Both the position numbers and the translations under genes were made by a program. This document shows positions 1 through 3,363 of a DNA stretch of 64,000 nt, one piece after another. Within the stretch, counting starts at the first letter, position 1. Each line of letters begins with the position of its first letter. This DNA comes from Corynebacterium freiburgense (lineage in GTDB: Bacteria; Actinomycetota; Actinomycetes; Mycobacteriales; Mycobacteriaceae), in the NCBI RefSeq assembly GCF_030408815.1, contig NZ_CP047355.1:1550001-1614000 (forward strand), given 5' to 3'. The notes beneath the pieces were generated by a model. That model made no database searches, was not told the DNA's origin, and was given only the letters and a program-made list of their open reading frames with translations.

Positions 1-826
1 CAACTAACATCGATTTTCTGTGACAACGAGACAACTTCTTGCGGAAAATTCCTTCTTTTTTCGCGGTATAAGTTGTAGGTCTCATCCATAGCCTTGACTG
101 ATGTGACACCAAATTCCGTAGGGAACGAAGAGAATCCACCCCCGCATAGAAACGACCTGCTGGAATGTTCATATCACTGGCAATCTTTCGCCAAATACGA
201 TCTTCATCCTTTATGGATTTATCGCAGCGTTGTATCAGTTTAACCAGCCGCCCAAGTGAAAAACTATCTACTACTGACCATAAAGCCAAGTCCTTCGACA
301 AATCTCTACATAGATCCCAATTATCAGAAGTCGATCGTTTCGGAACTTCACAATTCCGGGATTTACTAGCCTCTGCAAGCTGCTTTATGACAAAAGCTTC
401 ACTATATTCAAGAACATCATTCATTAAACCTCGACCTAAATGATCATTAGTGTACTCCCCACCCAAATCCAGATAGTTTTCAAAGTCAAGGAACGATTCA
501 TAAGGATCGAATTTCTGACAGTACTCCTGAACGAGAAAATGCCTCAGTAACCATTCTGCATTTCGTATTCCCGAATAAAGGATTTCGGAAACCTTAGCGT
601 CGACATCAATTAGCCTAAAAACTCTAGAGGGGGATTTTGTACCGACCAGTTTTCTATCTTTGCAGAGCCCTCTGAAATTCCTGGCATACCCGAGGAAATA
701 GTGAAAGTTCATAGAGCTAAGACGCTTTACATCATCTTCCGAAAAACTATTCTTTGAAAAATAGTCTTTAACATAAAGGTAGTTCACCCGTTCTTCGACA
801 GTAAGAAACGGGAGCCTATTCGCCAT
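1..826 (-). CDS. Abi_2 family (AbiD/AbiF-like) HEPN abortive infection protein, 3' end outside window
   Basis: Reading from an ATG at 826 down to the window edge gives 275 codons without a stop, so the gene is cut by the window. An AAGGAG ribosome site lies 8 bases before the ATG. Near residues 88-102 is IRNAEWLLRHFLVQEY and near 231-251 is LRNLVSHQSRLWMRPT. The RNxxxH core (R237, H242) followed by SRLW matches the HEPN ribonuclease signature at the C-terminus of Abi_2 proteins such as AbiD and AbiF. That family acts as phage-triggered or toxin-antitoxin ribonucleases. The gene is AT-rich compared with the core genes further on, which suggests transfer. The nearest upstream element is the stem-loop RNA candidate at 851-958. 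I am confident of the family; anti-phage activity is inferred. Confidence 0.82.
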   Translation of the reverse strand, partial: MANRLPFLTVEERVNYLYVKDYFSKNSFSEDDVKRLSSMNFHYFLGYARNFRGLCKDRKLVGTKSPSRVFRLIDVDAKVSEILYSGIRNAEWLLRHFLVQEYCQKFDPYESFLDFENYLDLGGEYTNDHLGRGLMNDVLEYSEAFVIKQLAEASKSRNCEVPKRSTSDNWDLCRDLSKDLALWSVVDSFSLGRLVKLIQRCDKSIKDEDRIWRKIASDMNIPAGRFYAGVDSLRSLRNLVSHQSRLWMRPTTYTAKKEGIFRKKLSRCHRKSMLV

Positions 827-850
827 ATTTTCAACTCCTTAAATACAGGA

Positions 851-883
851 CAAGCCCCAGAAACCTTTGGCTTCTGGGGCTTG
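851..883 (-). terminator. Strong GC-rich hairpin between the candidate RNA and the Abi_2 gene
   Basis: A perfect 12-bp stem with a 9-base loop. On the minus strand it is followed by TCCTGTATTT, which is only moderately T-rich. It would end a short transcript before the abi gene, or let some polymerase read through to it. Confidence 0.55.
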
Positions 884-958
884 TTAGGGCCACTACAGCA
901 GGACGCTTACCAAGAGAGGCGGCTGCGGGAACTATTGAGACTAATACTAGTCCTGCTG
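851..958 (-). ncRNA. Candidate structured small RNA upstream of the Abi_2 gene
   Basis: On the minus strand CAGCAGGAC (958-950) can pair perfectly with GTCCTGCTG (904-896), closing a loop of 45 bases. About 12 bases later a second perfect 12-bp stem follows, CAAGCCCCAGAA with TTCTGGGGCTTG (883-851). The whole unit ends 24 bases before the abi start codon. Small structured RNAs directly upstream of Abi_2 genes have been described as the abiF RNA motif, and the layout here (closed stem, then terminator-like hairpin, then gene) is of that kind. I cannot confirm that this is the same RNA class. It could instead be a leader that attenuates abi. Confidence 0.5.
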
Positions 959-1069
959 AAATCATCCCGCAATCCCACATCACCCCCGCCAGCTAGAAAT
1001 CACACGGCAAAGACCTTATTGAGGGTAGCTAGCACTCTATCCGACTCAATGCCGCTCGGAATGTCCAGT

Positions 1070-1672
1070 TTAAGTTATTGGGCGAAACAACAATCCCAAA
1101 CCGAGTCTTAGATCGGCGATTACCCGCTCTGCAGTAACATCCGGCGCATTTAAACTATCGAGAGTGAGACCGTCAACCAAAGCAGTAACCAGTCTTGCTG
1201 CTTGGGGAACTGTAACTTCTGAATTAAGAAGCCCTTGAGAATCGGCGTTCTCGAGCGCTGACTCAATCAACGTTCGAAAATATGCAAGCTGCTGATTGTA
1301 AATCGTTGCAAGCCAACTGCGAGTAGATGCCGCGGCACCGATAATCACCCAAACTGCAGCATCCTCACGTTGAGTAGGGCCGGTTGGTAAAAGCTCAGAT
1401 AATCGAATCACTAAGCTTTCATACAAACTCGGTGCCTGAAATTCTCTCATTGCACGTTTAAGCTGCCGTTGAATTGAACGGATAAATGCAATCGCAATAA
1501 TGTCATCGCGAGAGCCCATGTGGTACTGGACAGTACCTGGGGCAACCTTCGCTTCCGCTGCTACATGCCGGACACTTAATGCATCTAAACCCTGATGAAC
1601 CATGACGCGAATCGCGGCGTCAGCAATATTAGCAGCGGCTTCGCTTAGTACCATGTCTCGGTCAATCTTCAT
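1070..1672 (-). CDS. TetR/AcrR family transcriptional regulator
   Basis: A 200-residue protein with an N-terminal TetR-type helix-turn-helix (residues about 10-58, including GLDALSVRHVAAEAKVAPGT and VQYHMGSRDDI) and an all-helical ligand-binding C-terminal part. The ATG start is supported by GGAG five bases upstream. It faces the membrane protein gene at 1747, and the 74-bp space between them holds a 34-bp palindrome. By analogy with TetR systems it should repress itself and the membrane protein until a ligand binds. The ligand cannot be read from the sequence. Confidence 0.88.
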   Translation of the reverse strand: MKIDRDMVLSEAAANIADAAIRVMVHQGLDALSVRHVAAEAKVAPGTVQYHMGSRDDIIAIAFIRSIQRQLKRAMREFQAPSLYESLVIRLSELLPTGPTQREDAAVWVIIGAAASTRSWLATIYNQQLAYFRTLIESALENADSQGLLNSEVTVPQAARLVTALVDGLTLDSLNAPDVTAERVIADLRLGLGLLFRPIT

Positions 1673-1703
1673 TAGGTCTCCTTTTGTTCAAATCATCAAG
1701 TAA

Positions 1704-1737
1704 TCGTACAATCGTATTACGTCATACGAACGTACGA
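1704..1737. promoter_or_regulatory. Palindromic TetR operator
   Basis: An inverted repeat centred at 1720/1721. The outer arms TCGTAC and GTACGA and the inner arms TCGTAT and ATACGA share the same centre. It lies between the divergent starts of the TetR regulator and the GAP-family membrane protein, ending 9 bases before the ATG at 1747, where it could block both promoters. Confidence 0.7.
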
Positions 1738-1746
1738 GAGATTGAT

Positions 1747-2421
1747 ATGATCGATATACTTCCTTTAATTGGTTTGGCACTTGTAGATAGCCTCAGCATA
1801 GGCACACTCATTATTCCCATCGCGCTCATTGTCCTTTGGGGAAAAGTACACATCAGTCCAATCAGTATCTACCTTGGAACAGTACTCATCTGCTACTTTG
1901 CCCTGGGATTAGCACTGCTTTTCGGGCTCCAAACTTTTAATACACTCGGTGACCAAAGCTGGTTTCACTGGACGGTACTCATTATTGGCATCGGCCTCAC
2001 AGCTATTGGTTTTCTTTCCCCCACCCCAAAACGAAATAGTGCAACCGCCAGTGAAAAAGTACGCAAGACTAATTCAAAAAGCATGGCGGCGATGATTAGT
2101 CTAGCGCTTGGTGCTTCCGTTGTTGAAGCATTTACCATGTTGCCTTACCTTGCAGCGATGGGCATTATCCAAAGTTTTGAAATCTCATCTACCAGCAAAA
2201 TTGGGATAATCTTGTTGTACTGCATCATCATGATTCTTCCCGCAACACTCATCAGCGCCATCGCACTCAGCTCCACAAGCAAGAAATTTTTAAGCGCCAT
2301 TGAATCATGGATACCCCGCCTAGAATATGAAGCAAAAATCACACTACTGTGGGTCGCTGCCATCGCCGGTATATACATTGTGTTCACCAGAGCTACCGTT
2401 CTCGGACTAATTAGCAACTGA
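1747..2421 (+). CDS. GAP-family (Sap/LysE-superfamily-like) membrane protein
   Basis: A 224-residue protein of about six hydrophobic helices. The start MIDILPLIGLALVDSLSIGT resembles the N-terminus of GAP-family proteins, which in mycobacteria are linked to export of surface lipids and belong to the wider LysE-like transporters. The open frame extends back to 1684, but the extra 21 codons run across the palindrome at 1704-1737, so the ATG at 1747 is preferred. It is divergent from the TetR gene, which suggests an inducible exporter. The substrate is unknown. Confidence 0.72.
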   Translation: MIDILPLIGLALVDSLSIGTLIIPIALIVLWGKVHISPISIYLGTVLICYFALGLALLFGLQTFNTLGDQSWFHWTVLIIGIGLTAIGFLSPTPKRNSATASEKVRKTNSKSMAAMISLALGASVVEAFTMLPYLAAMGIIQSFEISSTSKIGIILLYCIIMILPATLISAIALSSTSKKFLSAIESWIPRLEYEAKITLLWVAAIAGIYIVFTRATVLGLISN

Positions 2422-2470
2422 CACACGGGACCCTATGAATGAAGCAGCGACATACGCCTCAAATTCCGAC

Positions 2471-2490
2471 AGCTTGCCAGATTAGAGCCA
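2471..2490 (+). repeat. 20-bp direct repeat, copy 1 (downstream of the NDT-like gene)
   Basis: AGCTTGCCAGATTAGAGCCA occurs here and again at 2737-2756, inside the neighbouring gene, in the same orientation. This copy lies just beyond that gene's stop codon. It looks like a trace of a partial duplication or recombination. Confidence 0.75.
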
Positions 2491-2499
2491 GTACCGGGG

Positions 2500-3363
2500 C
2501 TACACAATGTCATCATCAGCAGTGATTGTCCGTAACCGTCGAGTGACCATGTTCGCCATTGCTGCACGGCCTTCACTATTATTTAGGTACGTGAGTGCAC
2601 GAATTGCACGTAAATCAAACGGAACATCATCCATGGACTGAGCCAACAGGATGGTATCGCGACCGAGCGTGTGAGCTATGCCAGCTTCGTAAAAAACGTT
2701 CGGATTCTTGCCACTAAGGTCAGCAATGACAACGCGAGCTTGCCAGATTAGAGCCAAAATGTCGTTAATAATATGATCTATATTCCAAATGTCATCTGCA
2801 CGAAGACAGCGCATTCCAGCTGCTTCGACGCCAGCCTTCAGCGACTCATAAACGGGTTTAAAATTCGAACTAAAAGGCATCATCACCGCTACAAGATGAG
2901 GGTCAAACTCCCTTTCAGTGGGGAACTGGAAAATCTTAGGCTGAGACCTACATTCCGTAAATTGCTCATCCACAACCCGATAGAGATCAACCTCTTTCAC
3001 TGCCCAATGAGTGCGATGAAACTCCAATTTATTGATGATGCCCAATTGGCCAGCTGTCGACACAATCTTTTGCGAAGGTATGGGAGCGATCGCTTCGTTC
3101 GGAACAAAATTAAACGTGTAATAGGCCCCTGACCTTACCAAATTAGTTACATGCCCTACACACGCAACCTGACGTTCGTACTGAGAGCCTATCTCAGGCA
3201 TAAGTAGCGTTGGTAGATTCATCAACCGTTGGACATTCACTTCATCTTGAGTTTGCCCGCCAGCAAAGCCAACATACTGGCGCACATCGTCAGCTGTTCT
3301 TTCGAGGAGACGCCCATAATGCACCTCACCCCGGGTAAGCCCAATCAAAAGGTTGTACATCAC
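2500..3363 (-). CDS. Protein with C-terminal nucleoside 2-deoxyribosyltransferase-like domain
   Basis: 287 residues. I do not recognise the first 150 or so. From about residue 155 the sequence has the Rossmann-like pattern of nucleoside 2-deoxyribosyltransferase/SLOG-type domains: VAVMMPFSSNFKPVYESL, then ARVVIADLSGKNPNVFYEAG, then AHTLGRDTILLAQ. The YEAGIA block holds the glutamate typical of such nucleotide-handling folds, and related domains occur in TIR-like defence effectors as well as in ordinary uncharacterised proteins. The gene starts 30 bases after the stop of the WYL regulator on the same strand, so the two are probably cotranscribed. An internal 20-bp segment is repeated past its 3' end. 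A function in nucleotide sensing or degradation is inference. Confidence 0.6.
   Translation of the reverse strand: MMYNLLIGLTRGEVHYGRLLERTADDVRQYVGFAGGQTQDEVNVQRLMNLPTLLMPEIGSQYERQVACVGHVTNLVRSGAYYTFNFVPNEAIAPIPSQKIVSTAGQLGIINKLEFHRTHWAVKEVDLYRVVDEQFTECRSQPKIFQFPTEREFDPHLVAVMMPFSSNFKPVYESLKAGVEAAGMRCLRADDIWNIDHIINDILALIWQARVVIADLSGKNPNVFYEAGIAHTLGRDTILLAQSMDDVPFDLRAIRALTYLNNSEGRAAMANMVTRRLRTITADDDIV
2737..2756 (+). repeat. 20-bp direct repeat, copy 2 (inside the NDT-like gene)
   Basis: Same 20 bases as 2471-2490. In this position it encodes ALIWQA of the NDT-like domain on the minus strand. Confidence 0.75.

Follow-up and report, generated by a model that had tools for sequence, protein, structure and literature searches.

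A stretch of 64,000 nucleotides of the Corynebacterium freiburgense genome (contig NZ_CP047355.1, positions 1,550,001 to 1,614,000; hereafter the window, whose first letter is position 1) opens within an Abi_2 gene, abi, read from the minus strand. The DNA just upstream of this gene (about 936-850, minus strand) most likely encodes an RNA of some 85 nt that would serve as antitoxin to the Abi_2 toxin that follows it, a reading which, with the mechanism proposed below, we hold at a probability of about 0.8. An initial annotation had placed a structured RNA of the abiF kind in front of the gene, and comparative folding and RNA models support it. The conservation, covariation, fold and position of the RNA were computed, as were the HEPN motif and AbiF fold of the protein.

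An abiF-type RNA ahead of an Abi_2 gene

Many Abi_2 genes in Corynebacterium and related genera are preceded by a common element, consisting of an outer stem, an inner stem of the form NGC/GCN, a loop that starts with CUCUC, and a 3' spacer of 4-5 nt. In the window RNA, this core is made of the pairs 934-932/887-885, 929-928/891-890, 927/893 and 926-922/899-895, with the inner stem at 921-919/906-904, a 12-nt loop (918-907, CUCUCUUGGUAA) and the spacer UCCU (903-900). Its 3' end lies 58 nt before the ATG, directly upstream of the Abi_2 gene. The RNAalifold consensus of eight RNAs of the window's own kind (the near type) yields the core fold, and the minimum free energy (MFE) structure of 844-937 is identical. 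The window RNA is 81-86% identical to its relatives. Among six near-type loci compared pairwise, the 88-nt RNA is 80-92% identical, against 34-49% for the 88 nt upstream and 36-65% for the 88 nt downstream, where the highest values belong to pairs of loci having the abi gene in common.

An RNA model built from 12 sequences (R2, including loci L002, L006 and L008; the window was excluded, and L007 was kept out because MAFFT misaligned its loop) has a single match in the 64 kb, at 886-934 on the minus strand (42.7 bits, E 7e-12). The model also recovers loci that were not among its seeds (L007, L009, L010 and L012-L015), and over 70 loci it gives 23 matches, of which the one in L073 follows the gene instead of preceding it and seems to be a chance match. 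The alignment behind R2 unites window-like and Rfam-like RNAs, all sharing the outer stem, the inner GC stem and the CUCUC loop. In this alignment 95.8% of the cells are paired, compared to 37.5-54.2% in slid versions, and six of the ten pairs are changed on both sides; the 25 such cells and the score of 0.591 were reached by none of 500 shuffles, a control that leaves the relatedness of the sequences in. Thus, covariation in homologous loci, the absence of which had been set beforehand as a refuting outcome, is present.

The core is followed by a second hairpin, which the initial annotation had described as a perfect 12-bp hairpin. The 12 bp are indeed there (850-861/873-884), and on the minus strand one G-U pair extends them to 16 bp. 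A perfect 12-bp hairpin with a loop of 3-15 nt occurred in none of 1000 dinucleotide shuffles of 840-970. The distance from the hairpin to the ATG is 23 bases (the hairpin ends at 850 and the ATG starts at 826), one fewer than first reported. A hairpin of 10-16 bp follows the core in all eight near-type RNAs, with a single A-C mismatch, in L107, and it is still present in L006-L008, where its sequence is very different. When core and hairpin were taken together in five sequences, 98.7% of the positions were paired and three pairs were changed on both sides (as high in 17 of 500 shuffles). The hairpin is probably a leaky attenuator, the 3' end of the RNA, or both.

On the 5' side, 20 of 21 loci have a TANNNT box 5-10 nt ahead of the core, L011 being the exception; shuffles predict 2.2. 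In the window this box would be the -10 element of the RNA promoter, and transcription would probably start at about 935-937. The possible -35 box shares three of six positions with the consensus. By eye, a word containing GGGGGT, often CGGGGGTAA or CGGGGGTGA, is seen at variable distance 5' of several Corynebacterium abiF RNAs (the window locus, L006, L007, L009, L010, L012 and L013).

The protein has been identified on several grounds. The full open reading frame extends past the window edge and encodes 321 aa (L001:1360-2325, minus strand). Its in-window part of 275 aa scores 65 bits with Pfam Abi_2, above the cut-off of 25.6, and PADLOC labels it AbiD. It carries a HEPN motif of the RxxxxH form (R237-N-L-V-S-H242), in which R237 and H242 are unchanged in 23 of 23 aligned rows, and its fold matches AbiF structure 8vz6. 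Pfam, motif and fold thus agree on an AbiF-type HEPN protein, as had been annotated, which is probably a phage-defence toxin with predicted RNA-cutting activity. Neither the protein nor its RNA was matched in plasmid and phage collections. In viral contigs, 64 stretches fit a peptide pattern and none was a relative; a DNA pattern gave no match. A viral structure library returned 172 matches at E ≤10, with none at E ≤0.001 among the 50 of 172 matches listed.

Proposed working and alternatives

How might such an RNA work? The layout of the locus equals that of RCd22-abiF of C. difficile, and for this reason the same working is proposed for Corynebacterium. In C. difficile, a SigA promoter produces an RNA of 98-132 nt, a terminator precedes the toxin gene, read-through gives the toxin mRNA, and RCd22 binds the toxin and thereby neutralises it, both in cis and in trans (PMC12373285). 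By analogy, a single promoter would drive both the RNA and abi in C. freiburgense. Most transcripts would stop or be trimmed near the 850-884 hairpin, giving the free RNA, and a minority would read through to become toxin mRNA. The core, with its outer stem, 3-bp CGC/GCG inner stem, CUCUC loop and 4-nt spacer, would bind an AbiF-like HEPN dimer and block the ribonuclease site, so that the RNA would neutralise Abi in the manner of a type III toxin-antitoxin system. Phage infection or loss of transcription would disturb the ratio of RNA to protein, upon which the freed ribonuclease would cut RNA and growth would stop. In this scheme, transcription and its start site, termination or processing at 850-884, binding, neutralisation, ribonuclease activity and the phage trigger are all drawn from relatives.

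If the RNA is an antitoxin, what happens to it when the toxin is lost? Abi_2 relatives (E ≤0.001) were found in 27 of 242 Corynebacterium genomes. R2 matches at E ≤0.05 occur in 43 of the 242, the weak ones probably being mostly chance; at 30 bits or more there are 19 matches in 17 genomes, the window's included. Fourteen of these 19 directly precede an Abi_2 gene or its remains (four being seeds, in G189, G200, G158 and G206). For the five that do not adjoin an Abi_2 gene, four of the fetched stretches (6.5-8.5 kb) hold no Abi_2 piece at E 1, and in the fifth genome, G025, the nearest piece lies about 4 kb onward. A model of the near type that includes the hairpin (R3, built from five such RNAs) finds eight near-type RNAs in the 242 genomes. 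Its remaining matches are to the hairpin only, including plain hairpins without a core (L133-L136); these, and matches on the opposite strand to the same hairpins, were not counted. The abi gene that follows is open in three of the eight (G000, the C. freiburgense genome, G041 and G158), broken in two (G189 and G200) and absent in three (G108, G051 and G166), the last two having no Abi_2 match at E 0.001 in the genome survey. The three RNAs without abi are complete, with the second hairpin, and the fetched stretches that hold them, 8-8.5 kb each, contain no piece of Abi_2. They precede leuS (G108; L119:4131-4218), an MFS transporter gene (G166; L120:3706-3793) and a fragment encoding the C-terminal part of rtcB (G051; L121:3897-3984), all on the plus strand. 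Two canonical abiF-type RNAs also lack an adjacent Abi_2 gene: L122:3227-3275 (+), some 800 nt behind a HEPN gene of the ApeA type, and L118:1316-1364 (+), just behind a gene that we take to resemble ychF. The RNA is likewise intact before stop-interrupted or broken Abi_2 genes in L002/L004 (G189), L006 (G200) and L098/L118 (G025). In five of eight near-type cases the RNA has survived with its toxin gene broken or lost, which is more readily explained by an antitoxin than by a simple leader, although recent loss or spread could also account for RNAs without an intact toxin.

Several observations weigh against this reading. The Rfam covariance search, which the initial annotation had suggested as a check, does not list the window RNA in either the window or the whole genome: at gathering and permissive thresholds there were no matches to the abiF family (RF03085) in the window, the RNA stays below the 37-bit threshold, and the best match in the genome reached 17.9 bits at another place (150 scored of 1293 candidates). 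RF03085 is also silent on the orphan RNAs L103 and L109; among the 13 loci of congeners that were scanned, it came close in three at the homologous place (33.4, 33.3 and 26.5 bits). A second model, R1, built from 15 rows of relatives outside Corynebacterium, several of them identical, recovers some Corynebacterium RNAs (among them L011 at E 9e-6, L012 and L013 at E 0.002) and misses that of the window. Two of the five covariation measures for R2 are not above shuffles (changed pairs, 132 of 500; pair types, 213 of 500), and the core of the eight near-type RNAs hardly varies (97.3% paired, two pairs changed on both sides, as high in 57 of 500 shuffles). Taken by itself, the core does not exceed shuffled sequences in stability (z +0.82), so the case is built on comparison rather than energy. 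Judged by the consensus the promoter is weak, and a general consensus promoter scan passes it over. In place of a good U run, the second hairpin has a weak U tract (CCUGUAUUU), so that leaky termination and processing are both possible there. Finally, one of the broken toxin genes belongs to an assembly that is 53% complete (G189).

Could the element be purely a cis leader, an attenuator or terminator that limits abi or ends upstream transcripts without binding any protein? The second hairpin does resemble the AAGCCCC..GGGGCTT terminator-like hairpins of the genus, and several other relatives have a U run right after the core stem. However, loop and inner stem are conserved in sequence, with GCCUCUC, G-A and GC invariant in the 12 aligned rows, a constraint that no terminator needs, the core is kept in RNA copies without a nearby abi, and the C. 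difficile AbiF RNA acts in trans (PMC12373285). A leader alone is thus unlikely.

A second possibility is a switch specific to this genome, involving the 9-bp stem that the initial annotation took as part of the RNA. This stem exists, with its 45-nt loop (949-905): CAGCAGGAC (958-950) pairs with GTCCTGCTG (904-896) on the minus strand. It appears in the MFE structure of 840-970 (z -5.3), and its 3' arm takes up positions of the conserved core, which makes the two folds mutually exclusive. However, 13 of 1000 dinucleotide shuffles of 840-970 contained a perfect 9-bp stem whose loop measured 20-60 nt, and the stem is unconserved in seven of seven near relatives, where the best match at the equivalent place (within 3 nt) has 5-8 of nine positions paired, with G-U counted, and 7-8 of nine when placed anywhere in the upstream 60 nt. 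When the 5' arm is excluded, the fold energy of 844-937 is still at z -4.9. This arm lies directly 5' of the -10-like box that recurs in relatives, and we conclude from the sequence that it belongs to the promoter, upstream of the putative start site, and would not be transcribed. A switch is therefore very improbable.

Also very improbable is an RNA-guided system, in which the RNA would act as an early form of Cas13 guide and choose the targets of the HEPN protein. AbiF is reported to be the ancestor of Cas13 (PMC12737573), but the loop and 3' spacer are near-identical between relatives, with no variable spacer, and there is no repeat array over the RNA (window 1-3000; direct repeats of at least 18 nt within 600 nt). 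Leader-peptide attenuation, through a 20-codon frame that starts with GTG at 893, crosses the hairpin and forms the end of an open reading frame at 831-983 (minus strand), was rejected, since L007 and L008 lack the GTG and pairing is preserved through changes in the hairpin.

Features of the locus and other RNAs

Table 1. Features of the window locus, and loci with other hairpin types before Abi_2 genes
Feature	Position or loci	Strand	Basis or description
Abi_2 (AbiD/AbiF) gene, 5' part	1..826	-	Pfam, PADLOC, open reading frame, HEPN motif, fold match 8vz6
AAGGAG, likely ribosome-binding site of abi	835..840	-	sequence, 8 nt 5' of ATG
Second hairpin, 16 bp, 3-nt loop, terminator-like, weak U tract	850..884	-	hairpin comparison in near-type RNAs
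abiF-type RNA core	885..934	-	R2 match, RNAalifold consensus, MFE, covariation
Putative -10 box TAGTAT of RNA promoter	944..949	-	TANNNT recurrence across loci
5' arm of 9-bp stem	950..958	-	promoter spacer; judged outside RNA
Possible weak -35 box TTGCGG	967..972	-	by eye; 17 nt before -10
Type B loci	L056, L058, L060, L071, L073, L089, L092, L093		terminator-like hairpin
Type C loci	L054, L062, L063, L069, L085, L086, L090, L091		terminator-like hairpin
Type D loci	L072, L075, L078		terminator-like hairpin

Other Abi_2 genes are shortly preceded by conserved hairpins of different types (Table 1): type B (GACCGGUUCCGC..GUCCAGGGCCGGUC) in eight distinct loci, type C (GAUCAGCCCGU..GCGGGCUGAUU) in eight, and type D in three. 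Rfam had no match at these hairpins in the loci scanned (six of eight B, three of eight C and three of three D). With RNAalifold, two pairs are changed on both sides in type B (eight sequences) and none in the near-invariant type C hairpin (seven sequences). C. freiburgense itself has two further Abi_2 genes, both on the minus strand: L080 (G000:C1:2136808-2137500), with an abiF-like RNA that by eye has a longer loop and is absent from the R2 matches over the 70 loci, and L086 (972646-972879), with a type C RNA. Since each has a different RNA, this one genome, with the window locus, holds three toxins and three RNAs. A speculative reading, less likely than not, is that Actinomycetes Abi_2 toxins have recruited several antidote RNAs, each toxin answering only its own, and that the complete near-type copies in unrelated places are stand-alone antidotes against incoming Abi toxins, a form of anti-addiction or counter-defence.

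Elsewhere in the window, a 287-aa open reading frame (2500-3363, minus strand) matches a PADLOC TIR effector over residues 109-263 (37.4 bits) and has no Pfam match. It lies 1.7 kb from abi and may be a further gene of defence.

Relation to known systems

The initial annotation considered an RNA-controlled HEPN ribonuclease in Corynebacterium to be little studied. This holds for the genus as far as the literature was searched, where nothing on Corynebacterium abiF or Abi_2 RNAs was found, although part of it may already be contained in an article on AbiF and Cas13 published in Cell in 2025. It does not hold for the mechanism, which has been demonstrated with AbiF/RCd22 of C. difficile (PMC12373285) and is reported for PbAbiF (PMC12737573). 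AbiF RNAs have also been discussed as precursors of the Cas13 guides.

Type III toxin-antitoxin systems of the ToxIN class likewise have an RNA 5' of a probable ribonuclease toxin. Their ToxI-like RNA consists of tandem repeats, whereas the window has one R2 match, no direct repeat over the RNA, and a toxin of the HEPN kind. The PbAbiF-AbiFr complex (8vz6) can be compared by protein fold, PbAbiF and the window Abi being far apart in sequence. With AbiF/RCd22 (PMC12373285), the locus shares the order of promoter, abiF-motif RNA, terminator hairpin and toxin, as well as the HEPN R..H motif. RCd22, on the other hand, contains the abiF motif twice, against once in the window RNA, and four U come after its terminator; it resides inside a prophage lysis module, while the window protein is unmatched in the phage collection.

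The divergent Corynebacterium form, the toxin-free copies and the different hairpins ahead of further Abi_2 clades suggest large changes on the RNA side under a constant HEPN toxin, which makes the Corynebacterium abiF variants natural material for the study of toxin-RNA specificity. Rfam covers abiF RNAs by one short model, RF03085, which the alignments presented here could widen. The window RNA shares with that family the outer stem, the 3-bp inner stem ending in GC, the CUCUC-type loop, the short 3' spacer and the site just before Abi_2; it differs in giving no abiF match, in its 12-nt loop, in an outer stem split by internal loops, and in having a separate second hairpin where abiF has a direct U run. 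An AbiF toxin with an RNA antitoxin is thus a known kind of system, and the Corynebacterium RNA is a divergent form new to it.
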